NCBI GenBank assembly: GCA_963930775.1
Contig: OZ005689.1
Location: forward strand, 21,877,058 to 21,941,057
Length of the DNA stretch: 64,000 nt
Origin: Cliona cf. orientalis
Taxonomy: Eukaryota; Porifera; Demospongiae; Clionaida; Clionaidae
Direction: 5' to 3'
A program made the position numbers and the translations under genes. The notes beneath the pieces are model-generated. The model saw only the letters and a program-made list of their open reading frames with translations, did not search any database and was not told where the DNA came from. This document shows, in pieces, positions 2,195 through 59,299 of this stretch (position 1 is its first letter; each line of letters opens with the position of its first letter).

Positions 2195-3666
2195 CATGAC
2201 ATGGCAGTATCCACAAACGAGTTAGACATGAGCGACAAGGTATCCCAAGATTAATATTATACACATCAGTACTTGTAAATGGTAGCACATTTACACATTT
2301 AACATAGACAAGATGGAAAATACTACTACTAGACTAGCAGTGCAGATACAAAACCACCCACCTTTTCCTTTCTCCTGGTATGATAACACTCCCCAAAGTC
2401 TCGTAGTGAGCTGAAGGAGGAAAACATCCTCCCAAAGAAGGACGATGGCCACCACCTCTACCAGCGAATGATTAATTTCATGATGGATTTCCTCGTGAAT
2501 GAGCTTAAGAGTTTGTCGGACCTTCGTCATTTTCTTCCCTCCAAACAACACTCTCCAGCACACAAATCAGTGGTGATGCCAATGAAGCTTCTTTTTCGGG
2601 ATGAGAAGTATACTGATGAAAATATCCAGATAATGCCTTCAGTTGCTAAAAGATGCAAATTTGGATGGATCACCACAGGTATACAGTGCTACTGAGCAAG
2701 AGAGTAAATAATTACCAGTGTATATTTATTGCAAGTTTTTCAGGTGAAACTTGCATGTATTCTGTTCTCACTTGGTACCCAGTTAGGTCAATGGATGGAC
2801 TATCTACATCTCAAGCAGCAGGCTGAGCTCACCTTTCATAGGGTTTCAGTATGCAAAAATGTCCGAAATTTTACGTTAGGCACTCTATCACAACACTCGA
2901 TATAGTTAAGAACACCGATTTGAGATGAAGATAGGCACCAATAGGACACACCTTTGTGCCAAGTATGAAGTCTTAACAACAAAACAGTCTTGGAGATATT
3001 CACAAAAATAGTATAAAATATGGCCAACTTAAGTTAGGCACTCAATCTTGCATGAAGTTTTTAGTTAAGAGCTGATATTACACTTTATGCATCCTTATGC
3101 ATTAACAATCCTAGTGTATGCATGGAACTGCGAATGTTTTGCAGGAAACACCGAATCCGGAAGCAAACATTTCTGCCAGTTGCTCCAGACGGGTCACAGT
3201 CCTCGTTGATGACGTTGCCCTGAACGCACGTGCATTAAAATGACGTTTTAATTGACCACGCCCCTGGCGATCTGAAACGAGATGATGGCGAGAATGGCGT
3301 TGTAAACGTCGAACGTTGAGAAGCTCATCGCTTCTTATCTATCTAAATGAGGTAAGATACTAGCAACAGTCGGGTCAATAACGTTTTTCTCCCTCCAAAG
3401 CCTCAAAAGAAGAGTGGTAGGGCGGACATTTTGTGCTTGGCTAGACGGCCTCTCATATCATCCTTGTACGTTAATATTGTATAGAAATAGACATATTACG
3501 CTAGGGGGTTTCTACTTACTAAATCTTGCCTTATGCTCTCCAAAACTTCCAACGGCCAATTTTTTTCTCAATTTACATTGCTATATATTGTGCACATGAT
3601 ATTACATCGACGTCATGACACGTCATGCCTTCTGTTACGGAATGGTCTTCCTTTGGAGCCTTATAC

Positions 3667-11111: not shown

Positions 11112-11230
11112 TATTTCAAAGGAGATCTCCCTTGATGATAAAGGCTGTGAGCATGATCTCTTTTGAACCGGTTCTTCTGTGAGGCAGCCCTTGTACGAGT
11201 CCCTCAGCAAAAAGTCACCCATTTCTATCA

Positions 11231-11888
11231 TCAACTGGATTTGGGAAAACCCCTCCTCTCCGTATGGGATCCGCGCATGGTTCGCGCAATGCGCGTTTTT
11301 AGTAGCTCAGGTAGGAATTTGTCAAGGTCCAGGTTTTGTCATATGCATGTCGAACAACCCTTCCTCTAACTGTTGCCATCTTCTACGGAGGCTAGTCGTG
11401 CTATATGAAGGCGAAATAAGCCTTCATTTTGAGCCACCTAGTCAACACAGCCACCGTAGACGGAGCCTGTTGCTAGTTAGAATTCTCTACATAGATACAG
11501 CTAGATTCATCGAACTACCGTACGTTTGCTCACCTTTTTAGCTTCTTGGGCGTCTAAGAACAATCAGCTGTCGTCAACGAAATTCAACTCTTACTCGATC
11601 TTTACGTTCATTTCGAACAGCTCCGCCCAGGTCCATTTAATTGATTTCCGGGTCACGCGTAGTATGCAGAAACGCCATACGCGTGCATAGAAATGCCTTT
11701 TAGACCGTAATTTCTCGATTATTGGGGGTGTGGGCATGATCATAAACAAAGCGCTATATCTCAACAATGAAGCGCACGATCGGCCTAAGACTTGAATGCG
11801 GGTTAGCTCTATGCTAGAGCTTAACCATACATCGAACTCAATTTTTAGACAAAATCCCATACGGAGGGTTTTCCCATATCCAGTCACA
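11231..11888. mobile_element. TIR element family E copy (TGTGACCGGA-type ends)
   Basis: The left end is degraded (ACTGGATTTGGGAAAACC); the right end is GGTTTTCCCATATCCAGTCACA. The body matches the complete copy at 51835-52503, including the conserved patch GAAGGCGAAATAAGCCTTCA near 11408. No transposase is visible. Confidence 0.75.
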
Positions 11889-13440
11889 TATTAAGTTCAA
11901 ATTTTTAATCTCTAATCATAATTATTATATTATTATATTCTATATGATCATTATTTATCTGCATCACATAATCAGCTCAGGCTCGCCCCAAATATGCATG
12001 CATGCAATGCATGACACTAGTACTTCAGTTGTGGTAACTGGGACAGTGCCTTCATAAGATACTAGATATTGGTGAAAGTGGTGTTCATCTGGTAGGTAAC
12101 TGCCTCGTTTCAAAGGGGAGTCTGCAATCCATCTAGTGGTGTGAATGAGAGAGTAATTTGCGCACGAGTCCAGTCCAGGTAATACAAGAAGTTCTTCATT
12201 TCCTCCCATGAATAATATGGAATCTCGCTACTGGACAAGATCTTACCAAGTAAAATTGCACCTAAAAGAGGTAAATGATCTAGATATAAATTTGACATAA
12301 AATCATATGCAGGTCATGCATCCGCTTCTTTTCTAACATTATTATCAACCATGTGAACCTAGACAAGATCTAATCACCTCCATGGGAGACAAACATGCAA
12401 ACATTTCTTATGCTCTATTCTTTCCTGATTACTGGGAATTGTGCGATACACTTCATTATAGTAGTAGTACGCCATCACTAGAACATTCACCATGGTCATT
12501 GAAATCACGTTTATCCTTTAAAACCTTTTGAATTTCATTTACGTTTAAAAGTTGATAGTTTGTTATCTTGGAATTTTTAGTAGTGCATGACGTAACCACA
12601 CATGCCCGTTTGGATGTCATCCATCTTGGTATGTATTGTTCACTTTGATCATGCCGTTTCAAGTCGTTAGTATATGTTTGCACATACGTCCAGAATTTTT
12701 GAGGAAGCACATTTACATTGCGGTGTGTGGAACCCTATACTAATTTATTGTATACAGTGTGCACACAAACTATACAACAGGGTAGGCTGAGTTCTGGTGG
12801 GTGATCTCATTTAATGCTGGAGATCCAAGGTACCAGGGCTTACAACAATAATTATATGTGACCGGATCTGAGAAAACCCGCCATACTTGTCAATCCATGA
12901 AAATTTATTTGCTATATATTTGGATAGCTAGGGCTAACCTGTCTCCAAGTCTGAGATACATAGCGCGCTTGGATGCGGAGCTAGAGTGCCTTGAATGTGA
13001 TTGTACCACACCCCCAATAAGAGAAATTATGGTCTCAACGAGGCACTTAGTTGATAATTAGAACATTACGGTATACTTCTAGATTTGACTGCGTGCGTAG
13101 CCAAACTCATTACCATTCCTGGTGTTTGCTACATATACTGAGAGATCCAGGGACTATATAAGCTCAAAAAACTGTTACAAATATAAAGAATCACTGATAA
13201 ACACTATGGGTAACAGTGCGCAGCAGCTGCACGCACAAGAAACCACTGTGCAACCACGCAGCTGCAAGGATTCCCACACGAATTTTGGAGTAGCTCCACT
13301 CTGGACCACATCCTGCCTCTCCGGTTAACAAAGATGGTAGAAATACATTAGTTATCTTTAGCCTTATTTTTGTGCAAAGTTATAGATAATTGAAAAATTT
13401 TGAACATTCAACATAAATTATTAATGCATGTAGATAGCCA
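11889..13440. other. Non-coding stretch with a truncated family E copy
   Basis: From about 12856 to 13040 the sequence begins TGTGACCGGATCTGAGAAAA and continues with segments matching the complement of family E (ACCACACCCCCAATAA), so it is an inverted, truncated relative. The rest has no recognisable gene. Confidence 0.45.
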
Positions 13441-13480
13441 AACAACCAGAGCAGATCCACCAGACTAGACTCAAGAGTCT

Positions 13481-14684
13481 CTGTAGGGTGTGTGGCAGTT
13501 CCCTGAAACAGTAGGACTGTGTATGATTCTAAAAATCATAAGGATGATTTGCTGGCTGTATTTCACATAGACATAGACATAGACATCTCACCATACACCA
13601 TACACCCCGATCGATAATGTGAAAAGCGTAGGACACTCATCACTAAGTCCAAGAAGGCAGCTACAGAAGGAAAGGTGTACATGCAGTGTTAAAGCCTTTG
13701 AGTGGCAGTCATGATCCCAGTGGATGCAGTATCTGTGCTATACCAGTGGGTGGGAGACCCAAGAAACTACCCAAGAATCGGGGACGTCCTACTGCTAACG
13801 GTACACACACACTTATCACACATATTAAGCAGTGGTCACCACGAAGCCTCTTACCAGAGAGTATAAGGAGCAGCAGACCACCCTTTGTCCTGCCCTCATC
13901 CCTTGGATTAAGACCAGAAGATGTTGAGTACTCTGTTCTCACCTTCTTGACCAACCAGTGCAGCTCTCATGTGGTTCAATTGTGTGCATGGAATGTTTTT
14001 AGGTCAGTATAGATCAATGTTTAATACCTCACCCAAAATTTATTATAAAAACTGTGCTTAGATGGATAGAAGTATAGGGTAAGGGAATTGGTCCATGTTG
14101 CTACACCAAGCATACTGTTGTAGATTTGCTACAAATGGTTGTTACAACTCTATATTATTAAATTCTTTTATCGAACTCTCTGATTTTGCATGGAATATGT
14201 GCAGCTTATATACACTCTACAATAACTGAGTTTCAGTGAAGTGGTACAGAATTGCGTGTGCGAAGTATGGTGTAAATAAGTGATAAAGGTGTGAGCATGA
14301 CACTGAGGGCGAACGAGAAGTAATCATGCACTAGTATTAAATGACAAAAATTATCACCTAAGATTATGTACAGAAATCATTGATCAGTAGGACAAGTGTA
14401 AATTAGTAATGATGAAGCTACAGAAAATATTAATGTCCACTACACTACCAGAGAGCAGTGTCCTGATGAAGGTTCTTGGACGAGTGATCGTCAAGTGTTC
14501 TGTGTGCCTTGAGATGGTGCACATAGACAACATTCACACACATCTAGCTAGTGGATGCAAAAAGATCACAACAGACCTGTCAGTGTCACTTATCCTGTCT
14601 CAGTCACTGACAACACCAACTACACCCACTGAGCGACAACTGGCGTCCAATCTAGTCAGGCGGATGGATGATGGTATAACATGA
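13481..14684 (+). pseudogene. RAG1-like relic, N-terminal blocks (zinc-binding region, basic CxxC, RING, C2H2-like)
   Basis: Four blocks on the plus strand follow RAG1 N-terminal order. (1) CRVCG (about 13482-13496), then DLLAVFHID with acidic repeats, IHPDR and CEKR where RAG1 has CxxC (about 13545-13630). (2) CSIC at 13725-13736, followed by GGRPKK and an AT-hook-like KNRGRP. (3) A RING-like block CSHLLDQPVQLSCG, IVCMECF at 13934-14001, in a frame one base off from block 2. (4) After an intron, VKCSVCLEMVHIDNIHTHLASGC at 14490-14560, resembling the zinc finger after the RING in RAG1. Each block has damage: a stop after HPDR, a Cys-to-Arg change, a frameshift before the RING. RAG1 similarity is my reading from memory; it may instead be a separate RING-DDE family such as the N-RAG-TP type. 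The Gypsy element begins directly after this block. Confidence 0.5.
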
Positions 14685-14787
14685 ATATTCATAATTGTCA
14701 CACTAATGAACAAGATAACCAAGACAGCTCCTACGTTATGTTATGTGAACTATGAATAGACAAAAATTATGTTTTGTGTCTAGTTTC

Positions 14788-17125
14788 GTCGGATGGTCCT
14801 TCAAACTTTTCAGCCATTTCAAGGGCTAGTGGTCTGTGATTAGTACAAATTTGTGTCCGAACAAGTATTGCCGGAAATGTTTTATTTACCAAATCATTGC
14901 CAAAACTTCTTTTCATTTATGGAGTGTTGTCTTTCCGTTTTGGTGAGTTGCCTGCTGGCGTATGCAATCACACATTCGGCTCCTTATATTTGTGACAACA
15001 ATGCCATTGTCTGATGCATCAGTGTAAAGTCGGAATGGGACATCAAATCGTGGGAATGCCAGTACGGGAGCCTTCGTGAACCTTTGCTTTAGCTCTTTGA
15101 AGGCTTTCTGGCAATCCTCTGTCCAGACATACTGAACTGATATTTGTGTGAGGCGATGCAGAGGAGATGCTATTTCAGCAAATATTGGTACAAAGTGTCT
15201 GCAATACGATGCAAATCCAATGAACTGTTTCAGTTCCTGAACGTTCCTGGGGGGTGGATATTCATCCAATGCTGCAGCCTTACTCGGATCAGTGGCAATT
15301 CCTACTTTTGATACAACATGGCCCAGGTACGTTATTTCTTGTCTGAATAGGAAACGTGTTCGTGGGGTTCAGCTTCAAATTCGCTTGGCAAAGCCTAGTC
15401 AACACGTCTGTCAGGCGAGAGATATGGTCCTCAAATGTACGAGAGATCACAATGTTGTCTAGGTATACTAGACATGATGTACCAACAAGGCCCGCCAGGA
15501 CAAATTCCATTAATCTTTCAAATGTGGCAGGGGCATTACCCTGCAAGTAGCCAGATCCATGGTGGAAAAATATTTTGCCCCACTTAGAGCTTCCCTGCAA
15601 AGAGCCAGATAAAAGATCCATGGTTTTGCCCCACTTAGAGCTGCAAGTAGCCAGATCCATGGTGGAAAAATATTTTGCCCCACTTAGAGCTTCCCTGCAA
15701 GTAACCAGATAAAAGATCCATGGTGGAAAAATATTTTGCCCCACTTAGAGCTTCCAGGGTGTCTGCTGTGGGGTAGGCATCCTTGAGGGTTACTTCATTC
15801 AACTGCCGATAGTTGACGCAAAGCCGGGTGCCTCCATCTTTTTTGGGGACAGACACAATTGGGGAAGCCCATGGGCTTCGACTTGGCAGAATTATGCCAT
15901 GGTCTAGCATGGAGTGGATTTGTGTGCTAATTTCTTCTCGCAGGGCATGAGGTATTCTCCTCGGAGCCTGACGTTTTGGTCTTGCTTCACCTGTGTCAAT
16001 TTGATGCTCAATTAATGTTGGTCTACTGTAATCAGTAGAGGATTGTGGGAAAGCATGCTTAAATTCTTCCAACAATTGCAAGACCTCCTTACTTTGCCGT
16101 GAAATTAAGTTGTTTGAATCGAGCAGATTAGCCTTCCAGTTTTGTCTCCAGGTAATACGGCTGACACACAAATGGTATTGAGCTCGTCCCATATATTGTT
16201 CTGAAGTGGGTGAAATGTGCCAATATTCATGCCTTTATAAATCTTGACTTCAGGATTTGAAAGATTAAGCAGTCTTACCGGTATATGTTGCTTAGCAGAA
16301 ATGGGCTTCTTTTCTGACTGCTTGCTGCAAGTCAACCCCCTCTGAGATTCTGCTGTCGTATTAACTGATGGTTGCAATGACTTCAAGCTCCTCTGTGCTG
16401 CCCTTGCCACGCCCAGTTGTCGTACGAGTTTCGTTTCTGGCGCCTCTTGGAGTAGGCGTTGTACACACTCATCAAACAATCCTTCAATTAACTGGTCTCT
16501 AACGACCTGCTTTCTCCGTCAGATCTGGAAATGCCTTGACCTGTCGTGCAAGAGCTTCTGCATATGCATCGAAGGTTTCTCCATCCTGTCTTTGTCGGCG
16601 CAGATGGAATCGATATTCAAATGGGCTAGTTGTAGGTGAAAAGTGTTTCTTTAGGGCTGTTGTCAATCGTCCATAATCTTTAAGGACCTCTTCCGACAGG
16701 CTCAGCGAACTGACCAGTGAAGGCATCATCCAACGCTGCAAGCAGAACATCACACTTCCATCCTTCTGTGACTTTAGCAGCACTACAGGATTCAAATCTG
16801 TTAATCCACAGCTTAAAATCCTCCGATATTGAATAGCGCGTAGGCATCCAAATGCTTGTCTCTGATTTAGCAGGATCCCACCACTGCCACCATAGTAACT
16901 AGAGTGGTTCTCAGGTAGGTTTGATTATTGAGATTAGCAATTGAGTCTGATCATACAGTATGAAATCAGCTACTTATATAGAAAGTAGAGTAAGGGCTGA
17001 TACAGAAGGTAGAATAAGGGTTGCTCCAAAACTAGACACAAAACATAATTATTATCTATTCATAGTTCACATAACATAAGTAGGAGCCGTCTTGGTTATC
17101 TTGTTCATTAGTGTGACAATTACGA
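14788..17125 (-). mobile_element. Gypsy-type LTR retrotransposon fragment (5' LTR, gag, RT, RNase H), decayed
   Basis: Read on the minus strand. A 5' LTR-like segment at about 17125-16895 contains CTATATAAG and is followed by TGGTGGCAGTGGTGGGAT, a primer-binding-type junction. A gag fragment (16795-16499) contains HFSPTTSPFEYRFHLRRQRQ and DAYAEAL. A post-protease segment (16479-16105) has LLNLSNPEVKIYKGMNIG. RT (16192-15289) has HQIDTGEARP, GIILPSRSPWASPIVSVPKK, LCVNYRQLN, YFSTMDL and YLDN where YLDD is usual. RNase H (15269-14790) has PFRLYTDASDN and LITDH-PLKWL with a TAG stop. Protease and integrase are missing. RT holds an out-of-place local triplication. It is inserted inside the RAG1-like relic. 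Confidence 0.85.
15538..15765 (-). repeat. Local tandem duplication inside the Gypsy RT domain
   Basis: A unit containing AAATATTTTGCCCCACTTAG occurs at about 15567, 15670 and 15730, with a shorter copy near 15627. It repeats the codons for GAKYFSTMDL and flanking RT residues, with spacings of about 60-103 bp, and disrupts the polymerase. Confidence 0.75.
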
Positions 17126-17139
17126 ATATTCATGTTATA

Positions 17140-18503
17140 ATGGCAGCAACAACTAGTGATTCTGTACAGATCACTACAGGAGGACAAGTGAGAAAGAAAT
17201 ATTCACCAACAAATGCATATTAGTTACACTTGCCATAGCCACTCATACTTGTCCATATTTCATCACCACGGGTGCCATCTGGAGAAGCAAGTGCCAGGAT
17301 TCTCCATAGGAGAAGCAACGAATGGCAGAGTATCCGCACAACCATCAGCAAGGATGCTAGCACAGTCCAGTTCGAAGTAGAGGTAAAAGCACTTAGCCAG
17401 GAGAAGTGGCAGCAGCTGTTAAAGGTTGCCGGAATCACCATTGACATCCCTCCCTCCAGAGCAAGGTCTAGCTATGAAAGCCGACGTTGCTATTCCTTGC
17501 AATCGGCTATGGATAATACATACGGTGGTACATGCGTACTTAAACTGGGGAAACATTGAACTATATCAGTATACTTTGTATAGATGGCTTACACAGTGGA
17601 ATGTGAGTATTGCTAGTGAGCGTAAGTTGAGGAAGCGCTCAAAGGAGGTAGTGACCGACAACCTCAAGGCAGAGGGAGTACCCTTCACATTCTCACTCCA
17701 CTCAGGTGGTGAAGAGATCAGAGCAGCTCCTTTGGCCTATAATCCAGATCTCAAGGAAAAGATCTTTCTGATGCTTGACAAAAATAGAGTATAATCATCC
17801 TAGAGGGTCTTTACTAGCATAGGATTACTTTCTGATGTTTTGTAGTCTCAACAAGCTGACATGGCATCATGCATCTATCCCTGCTGATGAGATGTGGGTG
17901 AAAATTGGTGGTGATAAGGGTGGAAGTTCATTCAAGTTGAACTTCCAAATCGTTAATGTCCCCTGTCCCAATAGCATCCATAACACTTGTGTTTTCACAG
18001 TATTCCAGGCACCAGACACCATTACCAATTTACCTGTAGCTCTGGATCGCTACAAAGAGTCTCTTGCTGATCTGAATAAGACCAAGTGTAGATTAGAATA
18101 TAAAATAATGCTATAATTATTGCTATATTATTATAGAAATTATAAGCTTCGGATTTTTTTGTGGGGACTATGAAATTCTCACAGAATTACTGCAGCTACC
18201 GGTATTTTCTAAGCATTTATTAATGAAACCATCATTAGTACTAAAATAGGTTGTCACTGCTGTTTATGGTGCCATATCCAACAAGACCAGTTGAAGCTTA
18301 TTCCATCAACAGTGCCAATGATTGAGCGTTCCTTGGATACCATCATTGCTGACAATCAGAGATTCATGGTTGCTGGAAGAAATGTCAAACCAGTCAAAGA
18401 ATTTAACAATGCGCTCCACGAACCTTTTTTTCAATCTTCTGTTAGACTAGGTACACACTTCCCAACAGCTGTAACATCCAATCCTATATGTGGTAGGATC
18501 TGA
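17140..18503 (+). pseudogene. RAG1-like relic, central blocks including a GGDKGG motif (candidate first catalytic Asp)
   Basis: Several exon-like pieces lie on the plus strand. 17140-17223 reads MAATTSDSVQITTGG, RKKYSPTNA, then stop. 17272-17440 has RRSNEWQSIRTTISKDAS. 17600-17790 has RKRSKEVVTDNLKAEGVPF and KIFLMLDKNR. 17850-18110 has a key block: MWVKIGGDKGGSSFKLNFQI (Asp codon 17913-17915), then PNSIHNTCVFTVFQAPDT and NLPVALDRY. 18291-18430 has FMVAGRNVKPVKEFNNALHE. In RAG1 the first catalytic Asp lies in a CDGMGD context followed by a beta-strand segment and PNS; the spacing here looks similar. Gaps and frame changes make it non-functional. Related multi-exon genes, as I remember them, occur widely in sponges and cnidarians. 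Confidence 0.5.
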
Positions 18504-19040
18504 GAAAAGAGGTAATTTCATGCATGGGCCGAATTTTCATTTTAAATTACACATAACTTCAAGGTGTAGGCTGTAGTAGTGGAAAGTGCTGGCGGTAGTA
18601 TCCCATGAAACCCTTTATGTTTGTTCCTACATAATGCAGGTTGTAATTATATAGTGGCCACTATACAACTACCAAAGAGCTCAAATGCTGTCTGAAACTT
18701 GTCACGTATGCTCTCTGCGTCTGGTACTAAAGCAGCACACCTTGCTTGAGCTACCTATACTTGAGCAGAGTAAAGAGTTTTGAAGTTCAAGTTCATTTAA
18801 TAGGTTAGTGAAGTATGTAGCTATGAGTATTTATCTAATAGTAGTACCTTGAGTGATCAGTGGACATGGTTTCCCACAAAAGTGCCACCATGGTAAGCGC
18901 TTCGCCCCATGTTAAAGGATGGAGCAAAACCTTTATGTATTGTTGTGAATCTTACTCTAAATTATGTATAAATTTATATGTACTGATGATGATTTTTTTT
19001 TCGACAATTCAAGGAATGTGATCACTAACCAGTGTTGCTA
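18504..19040. other. Non-coding stretch with a partial TGTG-GGATCTGAGAAAA element end
   Basis: At about 18490-18530 a motif GGATCTGAGAAAAGAGGTAA matches the element end at 21381. No matching right end is found and no gene is supported. Confidence 0.35.
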
Positions 19041-20607
19041 CAGTGCTACTGAGCAAGAGAGTACACAATTACCAGTGTATGTGTATGTGTATGTATGGCA
19101 GGGCCGGTGGAAGCAAATTTACATTGGTCAGGCCATGCCTATCTTTATTCACAAAATTAATAGCGGCTAATTGAAAAGAAATTTAAATGCATAAGATTAT
19201 TAAAACTGTCATAGAGACAAACTGTTTCACTATAGTTAATAAGTCACAATTCACTATTATTCACTAAAGCGCCATACCGTTAGTTGCTATTATCCAATGC
19301 CCAACTTTCGTGCACGTGCAGCTGCTATTCGACTAAGTTAATTCTCATCCCCAGACCCCACCCCCTAGGCTATCGCACGTCACGGGGTGGAGTCTGGGTG
19401 CGGATCGATCGTGCGCGTCGTATGTTGGCATGTTTAGTAGTTAGCTATTCTCGATTGATGTGGAGACTACGTCGGCAGAAAGTGAAACTGAGTGAGTAAT
19501 TTAGCTGAAAAATGGTCCGGCCAAAACCGGAGCAACCGGACCGGTTCCACCGGCCCTGTATGGTTATTGCAAATTTTCCGGGTGAAACTTGCATGTATTC
19601 CGTTCCTACTTGGTACCCAGTTAAGTCAATGGATGGACTATCTACATCTCAAGCGGCAGGCTGAGCTCACCTTTCATAGGGCTTCAGCATGCGAAAATGT
19701 CCAAAAATTATTGATTTTTACGTTAGGCACTCTATCACAACACTCGATTATAGTTAATTAAGAACACCAATTTGAGATGAAGATAGACACCAATAGGACA
19801 CATCTTTGTGCCAAATATGAAGTCTTAACTATAAACAGTCTTGGTGATATTTACAAAAATAGTATAAAATAAGGCCAACTTAAGTTAGGCACTCAATCTT
19901 GCATGAAACTTTTAGTTAAGAGCTGATATTACACTTTATGCATCCTTATGCATTAACAATCCTAATGCGTGCATGAAACTGCGAATGTTTTGCAGGAAAC
20001 GCCGAATCCGGAAGCAAACATTTCCGCCACTTTCTCCAGACGGGTCAGGGTCCTCATTGATGACGTTGCCCTGAACGCACGTGAATTAAACTGACTTTTA
20101 ATTGACCACGCCCTCTGGCGATCTGAAATGAGACGATGGCGAGAATGGCGTTGTAAACGTCGAACATTGAGAAGCTCATCGCTTCTTATCGATCTAAATG
20201 AGGTAAGATACTAGCAGTAGTCAGGTCAGTAACATTTTTTCCTCCAAAGCCTCAAAAGAAGTGTGGTAGGGCGGACACTTTGTGCCTGACTAGACGGCCG
20301 CTCGTATCAGCCTTGTACGTTAATATTGTAGAGAAATAGGCATATACTAGGCATTTTCTACTTACTACGATGCTCTCCAAATCTTCCAACGGCCGATTTT
20401 TTCTTGATTTACATTGCTATATATTGTGCACGTGATATTACATCGACGTCACGACACATCATGCCTTCTGTTACGGAACAGTCTTCCTTTGGAGCCTTAT
20501 ACACTACTACTCTACTGCAGCTAAAATCACTATTTCTGTGATTACTGGTCAAAATAAGTGCACATGCAAAGTTATAAAAAAATGTACTCTCTTGCTCAGT
20601 AGCACTG
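19041..20607. mobile_element. TIR element family A, copy 2 (TA-flanked)
   Basis: It begins CAGTGCTACTGAGCAAGAG at 19041 and ends with the complement at 20607, with TA on both sides. The body matches copy 1 without the two elements nested there, so it supplies their empty sites. It has its own insertion at 19099-19558. It lies inside the RAG1-like relic. Confidence 0.85.
19099..19558. mobile_element. 460-bp hAT-like MITE nested in family A copy 2
   Basis: Ends CAGGGCCGGTGGAA and TTCCACCGGCCCTG are inverted, and TATGG flanks both sides. Copies 1 and 3 of family A lack it. No coding capacity. Confidence 0.75.
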
Positions 20608-20758
20608 TACTTTTCGTCGTAACTCAACTACAGATTGTCGGCAAAATTCAACTTGCTGTGTGTTCGCCCCTCTCACAGCAAGAAACGTGCTCAAGTATTC
20701 TGCTGCTGATGCTTCCTCATCTTCCCTCTGCTTTTCTCCTTCAAGTTCCTTGATAAAT

Positions 20759-21182
20759 TGTGACCTGCTCTGAGAAAAGGGACCACTTGGGATATTTCAT
20801 AAAATTGAATTTTTAGCATGGATTGATAGCTCTATGTCTGCTGAATCCAATGGTGCAAGTTTCATGAAAAAATATCGATCACAAGTGGAATTATGACCAT
20901 TTTTATACACGCAGGTAGATATATTTGTTTTTCGGAAAATGCACATATTTAATCAAATTTTGTATTAAGTTGTATGTGTCCGAGCAATTGTTTGCACCCA
21001 AGCATTACGATAGTTTACAGCAAGTACATAAACATAGCATATCAATATGAAACTAAAATTCTACATTTCTGGTAGACTAAAATACAGAAAAATGATAAAT
21101 ATTTATTTTCCCCACATTTTAGCTATTATTGTAAAATGAAATTTTATCCCAAGTGGGGTCCCTTTTCTCAGAGCAGGTCACA
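20759..21182. mobile_element. 424-bp TIR element with TGTGACCTGC ends
   Basis: The left end TGTGACCTGCTCTGAGAAAA and the right end TTTTCTCAGAGCAGGTCACA are perfect inverted repeats over at least 20 bp. The extended arms continue with a GGGACC/GGTCCC step and CCCAAGTGG-type sequence. The interior is AT-rich and non-coding. Confidence 0.9.
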
Positions 21183-21380
21183 TTTTATATAGCAGCTGAG
21201 TAGAGCTCGAAGGAGTGCAGAGTATCTGGTTGTCTACCCCCTTATGCTAATAGGCCAAGTGATGGCAAGCCTCCTCAAGCACGTCAAATAACCTGTCAAA
21301 AATACCACGAGTTAAGTGTAACCCTGGCATACACACCTACAATCTATGTATGTATGTATGTATGTATGTATGCATGCATG

Positions 21381-22190
21381 TGTGATAGGATCTGAGAAAA
21401 GGGGTAATTTCGTGCAAAACGCTAAATTTTGACACGTTTCAAGTTGCCACCACTCAAAGGTACCAAGAGCCGTAGGCTTTATTGTTGGTTTATCAGCACC
21501 CCAGCCCTTCTACTAAAGAAATCCAATGTTAGAAAGCCTAGCTATGTTCTTACCTGAAATGGTGGAGCTCCAAAGTGCGGCATAAAATGGCCGATTTTTG
21601 CCACGCCCATACCGGAAGAGGTCGGGGTGCGAAATTTTAGCGAGTGTAGAGCAATGATTGGAGAATCACTGTACCAGGTCAACGCTACAATTTTATCTAA
21701 AATGCACATCTTGGAATGTCATGTTCCTGGATGGTTGAAGAAGTGGGGTGTTGGTCTGGGCTTGATGGGTGAGCAAGGTACGGAGAGTATTCACTCCTTC
21801 AACTCCATCGAGAAATCATACCACAGTATCCCAATTGTCCAAGAAGCTGAAAAGGTGAGTGAACGTACAGTAGTTTAATGAAACTAGCTGTATCTAGAAA
21901 GAGAATTCTAATTAGCGCCCATAGCAATGGACTCCATGCACGGCAGCTATTACAGACTAGGTAGGTCAAAATGAAGGCTTATTTCTTTTGCCTTTGTAGC
22001 TTATGTTTACCCTTCGTAGGCAGTGGCAACAGTTAGTAGAAAGGTTCTTTGACATAAATAACAAACTGGATTTCATATTTGACTACAAAAAATACTAAAC
22101 ATACAAAAAATTTAAAAAGATAATATTTAAACGTGCATTGCACCAAATGCGCGATTGACAAATATGCCGGGTTTATGAGATCTGGTCACA
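21381..22190. mobile_element. Possible TIR element with TGTGA...GGTCACA ends
   Basis: The left end TGTGATAGGATCTGAGAAAA and a right end ATGAGATCTGGTCACA are related to other TGTGACC-type elements. The span encloses the last RAG1-like exon, so the two ends may belong to different insertions. Confidence 0.35.
21627..21876 (+). pseudogene. RAG1-like relic, C-terminal block with GEQGTESIH (candidate catalytic Glu)
   Basis: The exon-like segment encodes SKMHILECHVPGWLKKWG, then VGLGLMGEQGTESIHS, FNSIEKSYHS and ends EAEK before a GT-AG donor (GTGAGTG). In RAG1 the final catalytic Glu lies in a block with HxxLxHVP, a charged stretch, then SEGNES. The layout H-x2-L-x-H-V-P ... GEQ-x2-ES here is similar. 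Nothing between 18503 and 21627 supplies the missing middle part; three TIR elements lie there. Confidence 0.5.
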
Positions 22191-22289
22191 TAATATTATA
22201 ATGATAAAACAGTTATGGCGAGACTGAGCGAGTAAGAAAAAAGCAAGTGCCTATGTACAGCAGGGAGATATTGTCAATGCGCACTAATT

Positions 22290-23899
22290 TCAAGTTTCAG
22301 CACAGTTTGTGAAGGAAAATTTCGGATCAAGATGATGGAGCAGTTATCAATCAAGCGGTTTACCCAGTCAGGACAGCCATTCGCCCCATTTAAGGGCCCT
22401 CTAAGGACTCTACAGCCTATGGGTCGAGTACCAAAAGTGAAAAGACTCAAGTTCCACCTGCACCCCAGAGTGAAAGTGGCCAAGCTTCCCTTGGTACCAG
22501 TTAGAATTTAAAGCCTACTAAAAGAGTCAGAGCTGCCTATACCATTGCAAAGAAGCAGCAAGTGGTGAAGTATGCCAAGGAGCACAGTGTTTATCAGGCA
22601 AGCAAACATTTCAATATCATCAGTTCAGGAACAATAGGCCCTTGGATGAAGATAGTTTTCCAAAGAGAACACTGTAGACTGTAGACTGTAGAGTATTCAG
22701 AGTTGCTGGAAGTGGAAGAAAGCTGAGTTATCCAATGAAGAAGGAGAAAAAGTTGGTAGCATGGGTCCTGAAACAGGAGATCTACATCTAGCAGTCTCTA
22801 TACAGCACATCATCGACCATTCAGGCTTCTACTCCATCCTTTCAAGGAACCAGAGGCTAGGTTCAGAAATTCATGAGACGAAACAACCTATCTTTGCGAG
22901 CTAAGACATCCACCACACAGAAGCTACCTGCTGCCCTCGAGAAGATGGCAACTTTCATCCGGTCTGTTCGAGATATCAGGAAAGAATTCAAGTATCCAGA
23001 CAGCATGATAGTCAACATGGATGAAACCCCCCATGTGCTTTGACATGACTGTCAACAAGACAATCAACCAGAAAGGTGCAAAAGCTGTCTCCATTAGATC
23101 CACTGGTGCTGAGAAGCGACGGCTAACAGTTGTCCTGGCTGCAAATGGAGATGGACAAATGCTCTCCAATGATCATTTTTAAGGGCAAAAGGGCTCTTAA
23201 AAACATCTCTGTGCCTAGGTAAGACTGTAACTAAAGTATGTTTATAGTACACTTCATCTATAATATGGCATCTTATTTTATACTTATAGTGGATGGATTG
23301 TATGTGTTCAGCAAAAGGGGTGGATGGATGGCACCCTCATGATGCGATGGATCAACGAAATCCATCTCAAGTACACTGGAAGCAAGAAATCACTGTTGGT
23401 GATGGATACTTTCAGTGCACATTGCTCCAATGACATCATCAGCTTGCTTTCAAAACATCACACGAGAGTCGCCCTCATCCCTGGAAGTTGTACATCCAAG
23501 CTACTGCCTCTAGATGTCTCACTAAACAAGCCTTTTAAGCAGGTGTGTAGGTGTGTAGGTGGGCAGGAGTTCCAGACTTACTTCCGTTCCCAGCTTGCTA
23601 CCATGCCTAGCTCAGCTGATCGTCTCAAGACTGCCTCCAAGCAAGAGATCTGCCAGTGGGTGGTAAAAGCCCAGAAATACCTCTCAGCTCACCCTGAAAT
23701 GATCACAGTCATTCAAAGTCACTGGGATTTCCCTAGCTCTGGATGGATCTGAAGATCACCGTTCAGAAACAAGGCCATCCTTGAGCAAGCAGACGAACCA
23801 GAGGATGAAAGGGAAGGTAAAGAAGATGATGATCCTTTTAGCTCAGAGTGTGACAGTGAAAGCGACAGCGAGGATGAGGATGGACTTAGTGCTAGTTAG
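22290..23899 (+). pseudogene. pogo/CENP-B-like (Tc1-mariner superfamily) transposase, frameshifted
   Basis: An HTH block of CENP-B type reads RAAYTIAKKQQVVKYAKEHS and QASKHFN (about 22520-22620). The DDE catalytic domain starts NMDET, MCFDMTVN (about 23015-23050) and continues INQKGAKAVSIR and RRLTVVLAANGDG. An intron with GT-AG ends follows at about 23219-23289. The next exon has WMDGTLMMRWINE, SLLVMDTFSAHCSND (second Asp region), and SCTSKLLPLDVSLNKPFK. The tail is acidic (SSECDSESDSEDEDG) and stops at 23897-23899. A run of six Cs at about 23027-23032 shifts the frame inside MDETP; stops lie around 22510 and 22680-22830. It is therefore inactive. Confidence 0.8.
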
Positions 23900-24624: not shown

Positions 24625-26370
24625 TACTTGTAATAAAATATTCTGTTTTGTCCACCTGTCTGCCCAAGCTACGTAGCTATAAGCTAGTTTAGACAAGCAC
24701 GCTTCCTGGTAGTGTAACATATTACATTATATTGGATTCACTAGAAAATAATTTCAAGTCCCACCTTACGTTAGATTAGATTCATAAAATTCCAACAACT
24801 GAATTTCTTACGTTAAATTGGATCATATGTAGTATTCGATTAACTACGGTATTATTGTTCCAACTTTTAGACTTTGTGAAAAAATTTTTGCATGTATAAT
24901 TATAGCTGATAAGTCATTGTTTACCACAATGCCATTGCAGTAAGTTGGTTATAATTGCTAGTCTGACCACTATGCGGTACGGGGGAAAGTGTCCTGAAGA
25001 ATGTGCAGGTCTACAGGAACTCGGTGTTCGTCAGTACTGGGGCTAGGTTTCCTTTTCGGAGTGGAGATCCTCTTTTCCAGCACCATAATCAAGTGATGTT
25101 TGCAGCTGCATGGCAACAGATCAGGCCCAATTTATGAGGTCTTGTAAGTGCTATAACTGCCATTTCGCTATGCATGCACATTGTGCGTGGTTTAAAATCT
25201 GGCGGCACGACCGTTTTAACCCACCTAGTTGGCATAGCTGCTGTACCTGGACCCCGTTGCTATGTGCGCTAATTAGAATTACCGCCAGTAGGCTATCTAG
25301 GTACAGCTAGATTCATCAAACTACTAAAATTTGCTTGGCTGTCATTAATTTTAACTCTATGTTCATTTTGAACAGGGCCATTTAATTGATTTCTGGTTCA
25401 CGCATAATTTCTTGATTATTGGGGGTGTGGCATGATCGCAAACAAAGCTCTGGATCTCCACAACGAAGCATGCGATTGGCCTAAAACTTAAACGCTGGTT
25501 AGCTCTATGTTATAGCTTATCAACCATACATGAAACTTGATTTTGAGAAAAAAATTAGTGAAATGTATATTCTTGGGTGGCATAGTTCGTCTTGAGACTC
25601 AGCGACAATAGTTTTTTTCACAAATCCACAGATTCTATAAAACTACAACTATCTAGCCTGTCAACTTAATCTCTAGTCCCCTAGTTATATATGGTACGTA
25701 GCTTTACTACTACTAACACGCTAAGGCCACATCAATTTAATATTTTGTTTCTTGGGCTCGACTGACCCTTGTCCTGACCTATTGCAAATGTGACCGAATA
25801 TGAGAAAGTAAACCATTTGCAATAAAATTTGATTTTCCAATAATAGACAAAATGTGGGGGAAATGAGAATTTTTAATTTTCTGCTTTGTGGTCCTCTGGA
25901 AAATGCATTTTTGGCTTCATATCGATATACAATGTTTATATCGTAGCATATAAACGTTGGTTATGAGCGAAAGTATTTGCTTGGACACACAATTTAATCC
26001 TCGTAGTCAATTGAAGGGCGGGGTTACGTACGTACAGGCTCGCATGTACGTGTGCAGTCTACTTGGTTGGGGGTAGTTATAAAATAGGGAACGAGGAAAC
26101 AGGAAATCGGAAATGGCAATAGGAATACATACATAATATTATGGTCCCGCGCGTGCGAAGATCTAATCTGCACAGAAGCAGTTCGAGTCTAACTTCGGCA
26201 GCCATCAACACTTGAACAGGGTCCTTCGTGTGCCAAGATCCATACAAGACAGGAGAACCCGCTATTCTTTAGTGTATTAATAGCAGTTCGGCAGCCATCA
26301 ACTGAGCCTGAGTCCCCCGCGCGCCTGGCAAGATTGGTGTACAAGACAGACGAAGCCACGGTTCATCAAG
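24625..26370. other. Non-coding stretch with a degraded family E copy and a 70-bp shared repeat
   Basis: 24765-24836 is about 70 bp that recurs at 38573-38640 (contains GAATTTCTTACGTTA). About 25150-25560 resembles the 3' half of family E (CAGCTAGATTCATC, ATTATTGGGGGTGTGG). 26000-26080 resembles the nested element at 4617-5173 in reverse. Sequence just upstream of 26371 is likely the 5' leader of the MULE-like gene. Confidence 0.4.
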
Positions 26371-29849: not shown

Positions 29850-30860
29850 GTCCCTCTCACTCACACATGGCTACTGGTGCTCCCTCTCACTCTCGCATGG
29901 CTACTGGTGCTCCCTCTCGCTCCTCCACAGCTGGTAGTGCTCCCTCTCATTTCTCCACGGCTACTGGTGCTCCCTCTCGCTCTTCCACGGCTACTGGTGC
30001 TCCCTCTCGCTCCTCCACGGCTGGTGGTGCTCCCTCTCGCTCCTCCACGGCTACTGGTGCTCCCTCTCGCTCCTCCACGGCTGGTGGTGCTCCTTCTCGC
30101 TCCTCCACGGCTACTGGTGCTCCCTCTTGCTCCTCCACGGCTGGTGGTGCTCCCTCTCGCTCCTCCACGGCTGGTGGTGCTCCCTCTCGTTCCTCCACGG
30201 CTACTGGTGCTCCCTCTCGCTCCTCCACGACTACTGGTGCTCCCTCTCACTCTCACATGGCTACAAGTGCTCCCTCTCGCTCTTCCACGACTACTGGTGC
30301 TCCCTCTCGTTTCTCCATGGCTACTGGTGCTCCCTCTCACTCTCGCATGGCTACAGGTGCTCCCTCTCGCTCTTCCACGACTACTGGTGCTCCCTCTCGT
30401 TTCTCCATGGCTACTGGTGCTCCCTCTCACTCTCGCATGGCTACAGGTGCTCCCTCTCGCTCCTCCACGGCTGCTGGTGCTCCTTCTCACTCTCGCATGG
30501 CTACAGGTGCTCCCTCTCGCTCCTCCATGGCTACAGGTGCTCATTCTCACTCCTCCACGGCTAGTGGTGCTCCCTCTCACTTCTCGCATGGCTGCAGGTG
30601 CTCCCTCTCGCTCCTCCACGGCTGGTGGTGCTCCCTCTCGCTCCTCCATGGCTGCTGGTGCTCCTTCTCACTCTCGCATGGCTACATGTGCTGCTTCTCA
30701 CTCCTCCATGGCTACAGGTGCTTCTTCTCACTCCATGGCTACAAGTGTTCTATCACTCTCGTATGGCTACAGGTGCTCCCTCTCATTCGCCAATGGCTAG
30801 TGGTGCTCCTCACTCTTGCATGGCTGGTGGTACTCCATCTCTTTCATCCATGGCTGCTGT
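29850..30860. repeat. 30-bp minisatellite, about 33 units, open in most frames
   Basis: The unit is GCTCCCTCTCGCTCCTCCAC followed by GGCTACTGGT, with variants (TCTCGCATGG, TTCTCCATGG). Units run from about 29879 to 30860, mostly exact 30-mers, with a 31-bp unit near 30585 and shortened units near 30730-30800. Because the period is a multiple of three and the units lack stops, long frames are open on both strands. The plus frame at 29804 gives a ten-residue repeat (ATGAPSRSST). Confidence 0.95.
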
Positions 30861-46110: not shown

Positions 46111-47986
46111 ATGGATATTGAGTGCCTGGTGGAGTGTTTCTGTGATTTTGCAGAGAGCATAGTCCAGTGTTTAATTGATGAATATGAAGGTCACGAACGT
46201 GAGGCCGATATAGGTAAAATTACCTTGTTTATACACTGCTATGCATGGCAACTTTATGGTAATTAGCTATTTATCACGTGTGGCTTGGTGTCACGTTACA
46301 TTATATCCCTCCCGGTGTAGACTATGTTGGTATTGCACTTACCCACGAGTAGCCTATACTAGCAGGTGGTTGACCTGGACATAATTATACAACAGCAGCA
46401 TTTACGGTCAATAATTTTGTAAGCTTGTAGTTATACAGTAGCATTACAATAACTATAATTATGTCCTGTTATTGCCCAGATCTCTTTAGTTGCTTGGAGC
46501 AACTCTATGAATATGCAAGCATGATGGAGGAATGTGTCCCAGTGACCATGCTTAATGACTGTCAAGAGCTATTAGAGTGTGAGTGATATATAGAGATACT
46601 TGCAAGAAGAAGCAGAAGCTGAGCGACAAGAAAGTACAATGGGACGCCCTGCTTTATTGATTGAAGAAGAGCAACTTTCCTTTTTCATTGACAATGGTTT
46701 CAAAGTTGAGGATATGGCACTTATGTTGGGTTGCAGTAAACGTACCGTTGAAGGGCGATTAAGTGCCTACAATCTGTCCACCCGTAATTACACAGTGATT
46801 ACAGATCTTGAGTTGGATGAGCGGGTACAACACGAATTAAATTTTGTATTCCCAAGGTGTGGAGAAAAATTGGTTCATGGAAGACTTCGTGCCCAGGGAG
46901 TGTACGTGCAAAGGATACGTGTTAGAGAATCATTGCATAGAGTAGATCCATCTGGAGTTCAAGCTCGAATCAGGAGAGTTCTTCATAGAAGGACATACCA
47001 AGTGGATTCTCCTAATGCTTTATGGCACCTAGATGGACATCATAAGTTGATTAGGTGGAGGATCGTCATCCATGTTGGAATAGACGGATACAGCAGGCTG
47101 ATAACGTACTTGCAAGCTTCATGCAATAACCGAGCTGAAACGGTGCTGTTAGTTTTTCTTAAAGCAATTGATGAGTATGGTTTGCCTTCCAGAGTAAGAA
47201 CTGACAGAGGTGGTGAGAATGTTCTTGTTGCACGATATATCCTTGGCCATCCAGAGAGAGGAGTAGGCAGGGGGAGCATAATCACTGGCAGAAGTACTCA
47301 TAATCAACGAATTGAGAGACTTTGGCGAGATCTCTTCTCTGGATGCCTTTGCTTCTTCTATTACTTCTTTTATTTCATGGAAGATGTTGGGATTTTAGAT
47401 GCAAATGATGAAATTGATCTGTATACGCTGCACTATATCTTCCTCCCAATCATACAGAAGCAACTGGATTTGTTTAAGCAGGCATGGGCTTGTCATCCCC
47501 TAAGGACCGAGAGAAATAGAAGTCCACAACAGTTGTGGATACTTGGATTACATGCTATGAATGCCCAGGATGAGGAACATGAGGCAGTAACTGGAACAAG
47601 AGCGGTAAGTGTGCAATAGACAATATTGTATATTGCTATTATGCCGTTGGGAAATCTTGTAGTATATACACAGCTATTAATATTGCAACAGTTACTAATA
47701 ATTAATGATATCACAATCATGCATGCAGCATGCTAATGTGCGATTAATTTTGTTGTGTATTGTGGCAATATAGGACTGGGATGATTATGGTGTTGATTGG
47801 GATGGACCAATTCCACATGTATCCGATGATGATACGGTGGTGGTGGAAGAGATTGAGGATATTCTTTCAGCAGAGCTTGATGACCAGCTTTCATCTATCA
47901 ATCCCGCACTCTCTCTCACTGAAAGTTTATTGGTTAATCAATATGCCACAGCTAAAGCATTTATTCATACTTGCATCTCCACGTAA
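46111..47986 (+). CDS. Integrase-core (rve-type DDE) domain protein, transposon-derived
   Basis: Exon 1 is 46111-46213 ([19 protein letters not shown]), exon 2 starts 46480 in phase ([18 protein letters not shown]). The joint to the main exon is unclear: a very short 34-nt intron at about 46570-46603 would keep the frame. The main exon runs to 47604 and the last is 47774-47986 ([20 protein letters not shown]). It starts with [12 protein letters not shown] and an HTH ([18 protein letters not shown]). The DDE triad fits [22 protein letters not shown] and [12 protein letters not shown]-terminal to it are [20 protein letters not shown]. This family occurs as single or low-copy genes in many animals, fish included, and may be domesticated. 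No stop or frameshift is seen in the main exon. Confidence 0.8.
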
Positions 47987-48791: not shown

Positions 48792-51700
48792 CTACATTAA
48801 TTTAATAAAATTAATTATGAAACACATGACCATACTCCCAGCGGTACACATGGTAAAAGGTCGTCAATATAATGCACACACAGTCAATGTACAGTATATA
48901 CTTTGATGCCAGCGTCTCAATCGCACGCAGAGAAGGAGCCTGGGACCAACATCTGGACTAGTTTCGATGCTTCAATCACAGTGACGAACTCATGCAGTAC
49001 AGCTTCTGAACTTCAGATCCAGATCAGTGTTCTCCCCAGCATACCTAACATAGGCGGAGGAAGCTTGTGAATTTTGGGGGGGCTAGAGTTTGTGTCATGG
49101 TGCCCCACTAAGGTGTGCTTTAGCACACCCAAACTAGGGGGGTCTGGGGGCATGCCCCCCAGGAAATTTTTGAAAAATTAGCTCTCATGAGAGCAATTCT
49201 GGTGCATTCTGGGCGGTATATTCTAGCACACATTGTCTGCAAACAACTACTATTAAAGGAATGTAAAAAGTATCCTTCAGTGGAAATTTAGAATGACTGC
49301 ATGTCATGAATGTATAAAAAAATGAAATTACATGGAACCAAAGTAGTAAAGTCGTCTGTCATTCACTGATATAAATGCTGATGCAATTTTTGACAAATCA
49401 ATGGCATCTGTACGGGCTTTGTGGCAGTACAATAATAATAAATGATTTAGACGATCCTGAGACATTGTAGTTCGTAGGTAAGTTTTTAGCCTTCGAAGAG
49501 CGGAGAATGTTCTCTCAGAGGTAGCAGTAGTCACAGGGATAGTCAGAAAAAGCTGCAGTAAAGTATGTACCTGTGAGAGGAGCTGCTTGAAGCCACCAAA
49601 GTTCAAAACATCACATAGTGTATGTGTATAGAGGTAACTTTCTTGATTGGTAAAGTAGATACACTGTATTGTTTTACGGCATCAGGCAGCATCTGAAGAT
49701 GAAGTGATAGACGTTCCTTATCAATATCACTCCGGTACGTGTCTGTAATGGATTCAGGAATATCTGCAGGGATACCATTAGCTGAGTCAAGAAGAAGGCA
49801 TTCAATGTCTATTACAACTTTCAAATCTTTCTGATCAAATCTTCGTAATTTCATCGCATACAATGTCCAGGACTTCAAAATACTTTTGTCGATACATCTC
49901 TGATGGTGTGGATGGATGGTGTGAAGGTGTTCCATCATTAATTCGTCGAGGAAGCTTGCGTTGTCTTGGTAGGACAGGCTCATTGGTGAGATTCTCTGAT
50001 GCAGCAATAACAGCTTTGTAAAAATCTTCAAACGCAGTATCTGTCCGCTGCCTTCGCAAGAAGTTCTCCGTGACTAGTGCAGCATCTCTTGCTTCTTGAA
50101 CAGTTATGTCATTGGATTGGAGAGTGCGAGAAAGCTGCTCTGTTGGTGCAAAAATCACCATGCACAATTTCAGCCTAAAATATGTGCTGAATAGTTGAAG
50201 TTGCCTAAGAAACCCACCAGCTTTCAGTGCGTATTCATCACGGCCAGTTGTATTTATCTCTTCCAAAGTTTGAAGTAGTGTTTCATAATTGTCAAGAATT
50301 GCTTTGATGGCACAAGTACGCACTGTCCATCTTGTGGGACAAAGAGGCTTCAGATTTTGAGTTTCAGAAGAAAGCTGAGATTTTATTGTATTGAAGAGTG
50401 TAGTACGTTTTGGAGAGAATTTTATTAGTTTGACAATTTCCATAACTAACTCCAGGCTATCACGAACTAAACTACAGAATCGAGAAGCATCTTGAAGGCA
50501 GAGGTTCAGACTGTGTGCCAAGCAATGCACATACAGAGCAGCAGGTTCTTCCTCTTTGAAACGACTGGCAACACCACGCAGATGACCAGACATAACTGCC
50601 GCTCCATCATATGATTGTCCTCTGCATGAGCTAACTGGCAAAATACAACGCAATAGAACATCCTTTAAAGCAGCAAATAATATGATAGCAGCATCTGTTT
50701 TAGACATTTGGACAAGACCTATGGGCTCCTCAAATATCTCGTAATCCTTGCTAACCCAACGGAATGAAACACACATTTGCTCATTACAAGCAACATCAGT
50801 TGCTTCATCAGCTTGGATGGCATAAAACATGCAGCTCTTGATCTCAGACAATATTTCATGAAGGATATGATCACCCATCAGCTTGATCTGCTCATTTATG
50901 ATGATGTGAGAGAGATATTTACCATCTCTTAGCCACTCTTTGATATCTGTATCATACAAAGACCACATCTGCAGCAATTGCATCATGTTTCCTTCTTTGT
51001 CATCATGACCACGAAATGCCAGTCCTTGCCGGGCAAGGTAACGCACAGACGAAAGATGTTTTAGTAGACAGCGCTGACGTTGTAGCTGCTGCTCTTTCAT
51101 TCTAGCATCGAGAATTGCTCCAATATTCACACTTGCAGCACTTTTGATCTTCAATACTGCCTCCTTATGTGTGCTGGCAGCCTCATGCTTGCCAAAGCGC
51201 TCAAGTGCATTTTTCCACCTAGAAAAGCCACTTTTCACAAAGGCATCATCTCCTTTAGTAGAAAACGTTATCAGCTTCCGACGGTCAGCTTCAACACAAT
51301 AATGACACAGCAGGACATTTCTGGTTTCACATAAAGTTAGCCAGGGATATCGATCAAACCAAGAAGCATTTACTGACCTCTTCTGGCCACTAACACTCTT
51401 GATTGTCGCATCAAGGATGCTCCGTGCTCTGGGCTGATTTGGTTCACTACGCCCTGTCTTGCAACATGCCCCGAGACACGTTGTAGCAGTGACTTCAGAG
51501 GGTTCAGTGGAGGTTTCAGTAGAAGAGTGAGTGTCCCCTACAGGATCTTGATCACTGGATATTAGGCTTAAACTACTTTCTGCATCACTCACTCTGTCAC
51601 TGTCTTCTGTCTGACTAGAACAAAAGTCAAACAATGTCCTTTGCATCTTGCTATGCACGTGGAGTACAGAGTCCACGGTGGTCACATGGCAGTTAACCGC

Positions 51701-58802: not shown

Positions 58803-59299
58803 AAGGCGAAATAAGCCTTCATTTTGACCCACCTAGTCGGCCCAGCTGCCATACCCAGAGCCCGTTACTATGAGCGCTAATTAGAATTCTCTACCTAGAT
58901 ACAGCTAGATTCATCGAACTACTGTATATTCGCTCACCTTTTTAGCTTTTTGGGCATCTAAGAACAATCGGCTGTCGTTATCAGCAACGAAATTCAACTC
59001 TCGCTCAAGCTTTACGTTCATTTCGAATGGCTCCGCCCAGGTCCATTTAATTGATTTCCGGGTTACGCGTAGTATGCGGAAACGCCATACACGTGCATAG
59101 CAACGCCTTTAGTCCGTAATTTCTCGAATATTGGGGGTGTGGCGCAATCGCAAACAAAGTGCTGTATCTCCACAACGAAGCGCGCGATCGGCCTAAGACT
59201 TGAACGCGAGTTAGCGCTATGGTAGAGCTTATCAACCATGCATCAAACTTGATTTTCAGAAAAAATCCCATACGGAGGGTTTTCCCAAATCCGGTCACA
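58801..59299. mobile_element. TIR element family E, 5'-truncated copy
   Basis: It begins at CAAAGGCGAAATAAGCC directly after the HECT Ser/Pro exon and ends CCCAAATCCGGTCACA. The first about 170 bp of the family are missing, so the junction cut both the exon and the element. Confidence 0.8.

Follow-up and report, generated by a model that had tools for sequence, protein, structure and literature searches.

A broken transposase relic with a RAG1-like N-terminal region in the sponge Cliona cf. orientalis, very probably a dead Chapaev-type transposon

Chapaev elements are cut-and-paste DNA transposons that are said to have been reported by Kapitonov and Jurka in 2007. The subject of this work is a Chapaev-like transposase relic in a 64-kb window of contig OZ005689.1 from Cliona cf. 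orientalis; the window is the whole stretch of DNA analysed, and positions are numbered within it. DUF1280 has been assigned to putative Chapaev transposases and placed together with RAG1 in clade II of an RNase H-like tree (PMC3985635). A second publication on DUF1280 gives only its counts in cnidarian genomes. Chapaevs carry a Chapa domain, whose name refers to a truncated N-terminal portion of RAG1, and in two subgroups a RING finger is added; Kapitonov and Koonin proposed an early common ancestor with Chapa, RING and core (PMC4411706). Zinc-ligand motifs C(2)C and H(3-4)H between the second D and the last E are common to Chapaev, Transib and RAG1 (PMC12730594), and the hallmarks of Chapaev include CAC...GTG termini and 3-4 bp duplications (PMC4079192).

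The relic occupies positions 13470-21833 of the plus strand and consists of broken pieces that were read as one transposase with several frame changes. It very probably represents a defunct Chapaev-type DNA transposon of the cut-and-paste kind (CMC/CMCT clade; probability about 0.86), a reading that joins its DUF1280 core to the published Chapaevs with Chapa and RING. The core segment 17823-18113, in its own open frame, matched PF06918 (DUF1280) with an E-value of 8e-13 and 48.9 bits (cut-off 25), and the match was kept in a mechanically translated frame (1.7e-11). At the level of sequence, these comparisons demonstrated that the core is homologous to DUF1280 and that the parts of the relic are colinear on one strand. 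The copy is inactive: it carries stop codons, frameshifts and insertions and lacks its 3' end, and the repeated frame changes along its length mark it as dead. The RAG1 core model PF12940 was not listed in two scans with a limit of E 10 and one with a limit of E 1, where HMMER filters discard most matches above about 0.1. The sequence-only reading had proposed a RAG1-related transposase lineage that kept the N-terminal modules. Its anatomy was right and the relation to RAG1 stood, whereas membership among RAG1, Transib and ProtoRAG proteins did not, as the core scored with DUF1280 and PF12940 was unlisted; nor is a new lineage supported, Chapa, RING and core having been published together in Chapaev in 2015 (PMC4411706). 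The relic is best filed as related to RAG1 but of known Chapaev kind.

The N-terminal part was compared with RAG1 through the Pfam model RAG1_imp_bd (RAG1 importin binding, PF12560, curated cut-off 23.3 bits), used as a stand-in for the Chapa domain; no match named Chapa occurred in any Pfam scan made. A first composite, with frames joined by the author, matched PF12560 with an E-value of 5.3e-7 and 29.9 bits. In a second composite the RING frame was swapped in after a mechanical scan had located the RING there, and this composite matched PF12560 at 2.7e-7 and the RING model zf-C3HC4_4 at 8.5e-5 (23 bits, below the cut-off of 30). Residues 26-184 of the second composite were aligned in a PDB search to RAG1 152-316, from Chapa into RING, at E 0.24. 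A two-row profile was then built from the second composite and a 233-residue frame of contig LWTN01000193.1 (L007, described below). Its top PDB match was full-length RAG1 (6oem/9jpu, which we take to be mouse RAG1) over residues 152-329, spanning Chapa and RING, with an E-value of 9.4e-7. TRIM and other RINGs came next through the RING part alone (best 1.4e-6), and among the 15 matches listed the Chapa part was matched by the three RAG1 sequences only. Profile comparison thus established the N-terminal region as homologous to RAG1. The proposal that RAG1-like N-terminal zinc modules are kept was supported by the PF12560 score of the author-joined composite and by the two-row profile. The pieces of the relic are as follows.

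13470-13511, plus strand: first zinc-ligand pair of the Chapa region (LKSLCRVCGSSLKQ), from frame reading; PF12560 profile positions 83-111 matched in a mechanical frame (E 4.8e-4, below cut-off)
13513-13680, plus strand: Chapa block NHKDDLLAVFHID...IHPDR(stop)CEK..., with one in-frame stop; best place for the L007 N-terminal frame and inside the PF12560 match
13685-13790, plus strand: Chapa continued in two further frames, SVKAFEWQS and then HDPSGCSIC...GGRPKKLPKNRGRP (basic patch), from the frames; PF12560 match at composite residues 28-103
13931-14005, plus strand: RING finger, first half only; zf-C3HC4_4 below cut-off, aligned to the RAG1 RING
14451-14561, plus strand: post-RING zinc finger (ESSVLMKVLGRVIVKCSVC...H...GCK), from sequence and frame
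14675-17139, no strand assigned: later insertion, a terminal inverted repeat (TIR) element with reverse-transcriptase (Gypsy-like) fragments on the minus strand; inverted arms, RT_RNaseH_2
17140-17791, plus strand: middle region in broken frames, presumed DNA-binding or pre-catalytic from its position between N-terminal part and core
17823-18113, plus strand: first part of the core, IGGDKGG...PNS..., DUF1280 (PF06918)
18130-18500, plus strand: second part of the core, GDYEILTELLQLP and then GCHCCLWCHI...NNALHEPFF, from the frames; C(2)C at 18261-18272, motif by sequence
21630-21833, plus strand: last part of the core with H(4)H, GEQGTESIHSFNSI...SIP and the putative catalytic Glu; tblastn with the L007 C block

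Frame and sequence reading recovered all blocks named earlier, on the plus strand and in the order given: CRVCGSS from 13482, DLLAVFHID...IHPDR at 13546-13614, GCSIC...KNRGRP ending at 13790, CSVC...H...C within 14451-14561, GGDKGG at 17907-17924 followed by PNS, H(4)H at 21705-21722 and GEQGTES at 21768-21788. The RING half was present with its frame corrected, as it scores in the second forward frame at 13931-14005, and the HVP...GEQGTES block was present with a similarity that ends at 21833 in the tblastn search with the L007 C block. The block at 13685-13790 follows the pattern EWxxHxPxCxIC plus a basic patch. In the PDB alignment of the second composite, the piece that sets the first zinc pair against LRHFCRICGNRFK of RAG1 has a negative score. 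The post-RING finger, which presumably resembles the RAG1 finger, had no match above cut-off in the Pfam scans. Pfam gave weak sub-cut-off matches only, to unrelated families, in the middle region 17140-17791, a sub-cut-off match to an unrelated family only in 18213-18500, and none in 21630-21833. The zinc-ligand motifs were read in the sequence as CLWC at 18261-18272 for C(2)C and HILECH at 21705-21722 for H(4)H. The LH motif was not seen by eye, and the stretch expected to hold it is interrupted. A short GT...AG intron at 18202-18249 was considered and rejected because the frames fail to join cleanly, and introns are therefore not claimed.

The front and the core are separated by 14675-17139, which is one TIR element with arms that are 97% and 96% complementary. 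It is flanked by a 4-bp target duplication, ATGG, at 14671-14674 and 17140-17143; a flank match of four bases is expected by chance about once in 256. The duplication indicates that the sequences to its left and right were once contiguous, so that front and core most likely adjoined before the insertion landed. The relic had been described earlier as broken by a Gypsy element and TIR elements. Later insertions are indeed present, and "Gypsy" comes down to one match, RT_RNaseH_2 at 1.2e-13 in one of three separately scanned pieces (the other two had no match), plus the author's reading.

A relative was found through a DNA pattern for the GEQG block in a genome contig collection. This contig, L007, has 12,097 bp and was binned with a Cycloclasticus symbiont of the sponge Poecilosclerida sp. 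M. It carries a protein-tyrosine phosphatase piece (3e-13), the sole such match in the bin, and little coding sequence by eye; on these grounds it was taken as eukaryote (host) contamination, most likely from the sponge. PF12560 was found in this contig only, both among 369 Gammaproteobacteria at E 0.001 and among 18 genomes of the bin's genus at E 0.01; at E 1 there were matches in 4 of 14 control genomes, none above cut-off. DUF1280 was absent from the 369 Gammaproteobacteria, in a search that gave no match anywhere. A HECT hint in L007 was weak (0.02).

L007 contains an uninterrupted frame of 233 residues (11129-11827, minus strand) with a PF12560 match of 9.4e-11. Its best place in the 64-kb window was 13513-13680 (E 0.010, with 1 of 200 shuffled queries as good), and its score against the window composite was 125, compared with a maximum of 62 in 2000 shuffles, none of which was as good. 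Its best PDB match was RAG1 chain 21wb (9.6e-5), followed by the UHRF1 RING (0.0012) and full-length RAG1 (6oem, 9jpu; 0.003). The alignment to full-length RAG1 spans Chapa and RING, and the RING part aligns to RAG1, UHRF1, TRIM and RING2. AlphaFold2 run without an alignment gave the frame a mean predicted local distance difference test (pLDDT) score of 38.5. About 6 kb from this frame, L007 holds a separate C block with GEQGAES, in which the first H of H(4)H alone is kept in the alignment. This C block found 21666-21833 in the window with an E-value of 4.8e-10 (tblastn; none of 200 shuffled queries as good) and scored 107 against the window C block (shuffle maximum 45, 0 of 2000). The 233-residue frame ends in ~34 residues that resemble the tail of the L007 C block (score 70; none of 2000 shuffles was as good). 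It thus seems to run from Chapa and RING straight into a C-terminal tail, with the core absent.

No intact copy of the relic was found in the viral, genome, phage and plasmid sequence collections. The phage and plasmid collections and one genome-contig scan gave no match, and the viral contig scans mostly nothing related. Two viral contigs were rejected, as they share a short GEQGAE stretch only and their frames read like phage tape-measure proteins, as were two further genome contigs with matches near a short motif only (E 0.25 and 0.49) or at noise level. In a tblastx comparison of the window with L007, single-hit statistics were used, summed statistics having inflated the E-values. Between window 53802-48621 (minus strand) and L007:223-2204 (plus strand), four short stretches match in translation and keep their order (best E 4.8e-7); they may belong to one multi-exon gene family with members near both relics.

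Compared with Chapaevs that carry Chapa and RING, the relic has the same DUF1280 core, RAG1-like N-terminus, C(2)C and H(4)H, and half a RING, with a score below cut-off, follows its N-terminus. It differs in being broken and in that no CAC...GTG termini of its own were located. The literature searched, outside which many subscription papers and Repbase Reports lie, gave no sponge Chapaev. With RAG1, TransibSU and ProtoRAG the relic shares an N-terminal zinc region and RING, incomplete in the relic, that are homologous to RAG1 152-329, and a catalytic motif order presumed to be that of RAG1. It differs from them in its DUF1280 core, with the RAG1 core family unlisted, and in that no RAG2-like partner was found: no kelch family was matched in 10 window frames, a scan that covered 9 of the 34 frames of at least 120 residues (14 in all scans). 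Canonical Transib has the core as its sole domain (PMC4411706), whereas the relic has a RAG1-like N-terminus as well. The Aplysia N-RAG-TP, described as composed wholly of RAG1 N-terminal-like sequence (PMC8355894), was compared by this description. It is alike in having a RAG1-like N-terminus in a mobile element, and the L007 frame is likewise core-less; it differs in that a DUF1280 core follows on the same strand in the window and that the L007 frame ends in a C-block-like tail.

Judged by RAG1 and Chapaev, the intact form would have been a single transposase that begins with a Chapa zinc region and a RING homologous to the RAG1 N-terminus. Its middle part would bind DNA, and its DDE core, of RNase H fold, would carry the zinc ligands C(2)C and H(4)H. 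Such a protein would bind its own terminal repeats, cleave with its DDE residues and then reinsert the element. The zinc regions may shape the core, the RING/Chapa part may aid dimerisation, and the N-terminal modules might also serve ubiquitin ligation as in RAG1.

Several observations weigh against the identification as a Chapaev with a RAG1-like front. The N-terminal score of the window hangs on frames chosen by the author with RAG1 as a guide, and for this reason all six frames of 13300-14700 were also run mechanically. These stayed under cut-off: PF12560 was matched in one of six (4.8e-4, 20.2 bits) and the RING model in one of six (E 0.011, the same frame also giving Melittin at 0.13), and four of six, including the DLLAVFHID frame, had no match up to E 1. 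The PDB search with the first composite was empty; with the second, used alone, an unrelated chain (0.18) ranked ahead of RAG1 (E 0.24). The DUF1280 match is confined to the final third of the profile (positions 152-218 of 220), the tie of DUF1280 to Chapaev was taken from the literature (PMC3985635), and PDB searches with the core composite and with the C-block profile yielded no chain of RAG1 or Transib. L007 had no DUF1280 match (nor had its whole bin) and no significant GGDKGG block, and the tail of its 233-residue frame scored 40 against the window C block, with 35 of 2000 shuffles as good. Finally, CAC...GTG termini were not seen among 25 of the 29 inverted pairs in 12500-22600.

The match of N-terminal region and RING to RAG1 itself, together with a catalytic motif order that we presume to be that of RAG1, would also suit the relic of a RAG-like transposon (RAG1L/TransibSU or ProtoRAG) whose core diverged beyond the RAG1 core model. 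Such an origin is improbable: the core scores with DUF1280 and PF12940 is unlisted, no 5-bp duplication was found, and the kelch scan was empty, most long frames lying outside it. Moreover, invertebrate RAG1L cores are reported to be more alike among themselves than to vertebrate RAG1 (PMC7204232), and on that account a RAG1L core with no RAG1 score at all is less likely.

An N-RAG-TP-like N-terminal element could have come to neighbour a separate Chapaev core by chance, in keeping with the description of the Aplysia element as all RAG1 N-terminal-like (PMC8355894) and with a core-less L007 frame that lies ~6 kb from a separate C block. This too seems unlikely to be the case, as both parts stand on one strand and in protein order, the sides of the ATGG-flanked insertion were once contiguous, the L007 frame itself ends in a C-block-like tail, and Chapaevs are known to fuse these parts (PMC4411706). 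That zinc-finger-like and motif-like fragments merely fell into this arrangement by chance might be argued from the modest N-terminal evidence of the mechanical frames; it is highly implausible given DUF1280 at 8e-13, the C block at 4.8e-10 and the profile match to RAG1 at 9.4e-7, and for the core it is already refuted. A dead Chapaev-type transposon thus remains the preferred identity of the relic.

The relic is bracketed by the two halves of a TIR family with GTGACC ends.

12853-13038, no strand assigned: left half of the GTGACC-TIR family; 68-70% identity to four copies, with the 25.2-kb copy only over 12929-13031
21836-22190, no strand assigned: right half of the GTGACC-TIR family; 74-81% identity to four copies, over parts of 21836-22075

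Further GTGACC...GGTCAC copies, some partial, lie near 11.2, 25.2, 51.8 and 58.8 kb. As short TIR family copies they were placed at 11234-11889, 25214-25553, 51836-52504 and 58796-59302 (GTGACCGG...CCGGTCAC), some being incomplete, and the copy at 51836-52502 has an ATTT duplication. The terminus at 22153-22199 matches the left terminus at 12848-12895, inverted, with 83% identity, the right end reading GGTCACA, and the flanks of the pair that brackets the relic are ATAT and ATAA. The coding part of the relic is cut off at 21833, the last position of the C-block similarity, and within 3 bases, at 21836, the right half begins. One possibility is that the GTGACC ends at 12857 and 22190 belong to the relic itself, the small copies being its deletion products; the other is that a transposase fragment ended up within a GTGACC-type element. 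Counted against the former are the extra base pairs between the matched halves of the copies (~140-150 bp in three and ~80 in the fourth, missing in the relic), the abrupt stop of the C block and ends that are not CAC...GTG. Among 25 of the 29 inverted pairs of 12500-22600 and in the flanks, neither a 5-bp target duplication nor the relic's own ends were located. A TIR element of ~420 bp at 20760-21181 and lone left ends at 18488 and 21380 have a related terminus (GTG...CTGAGAAAAG), which suggests one wider terminus type in the genome.

Other elements were noted in the window. A 0.95-kb repeat occurs at 2719-3666 and 19557-20502 with 89% identity, the second copy lying within the relic inside a 27-bp perfect inverted repeat (19039-19065/20583-20609). 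Immediately to the right of the relic, 23264-23749 holds a pogo-like transposase fragment (DDE_1, 3.6e-13). A tandem array at 29851-30859 shows self-matches spaced by multiples of 30 bp and long open frames on both strands. On the minus strand, 46594-47616 and 49838-51772 contain a 341-residue integrase-core frame (rva_4, 3.6e-80) and a 645-residue DUF4371 frame (1.9e-14).

The joining of an N-RAG-TP element with Transib is the model given for the origin of the RAG1 N-terminus in reviews of 2021 and 2026 (PMC8355894, PMC13337447). The front and core of the relic, on two sides of an insertion and once contiguous, and the front-to-tail frame of L007 favour an early fusion and would account simply for core-less elements; the L007 frame gives a hint that internal deletion could produce core-less N-RAG-TP elements. 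We put forward, as a tentative and rather doubtful proposal, that the full RAG1 module set (Chapa, RING and DDE core in one gene) predates the split between sponges and other animals, and that such Chapaevs gave rise, through internal deletion, to core-less elements of the N-RAG-TP kind. If this were true, the RAG1 N-terminus would not have been gained by fusion of N-RAG-TP with Transib. The proposal is read from a single contig of a sponge sample and is open to horizontal transfer, contamination or one odd frame. Horizontal transfer has been documented for Chapaev (PMC4079192) and could also explain the occurrence of Chapaev in a sponge. The relic is one more dead Chapaev, yet it is relevant to how RAG1 gained its N-terminus.

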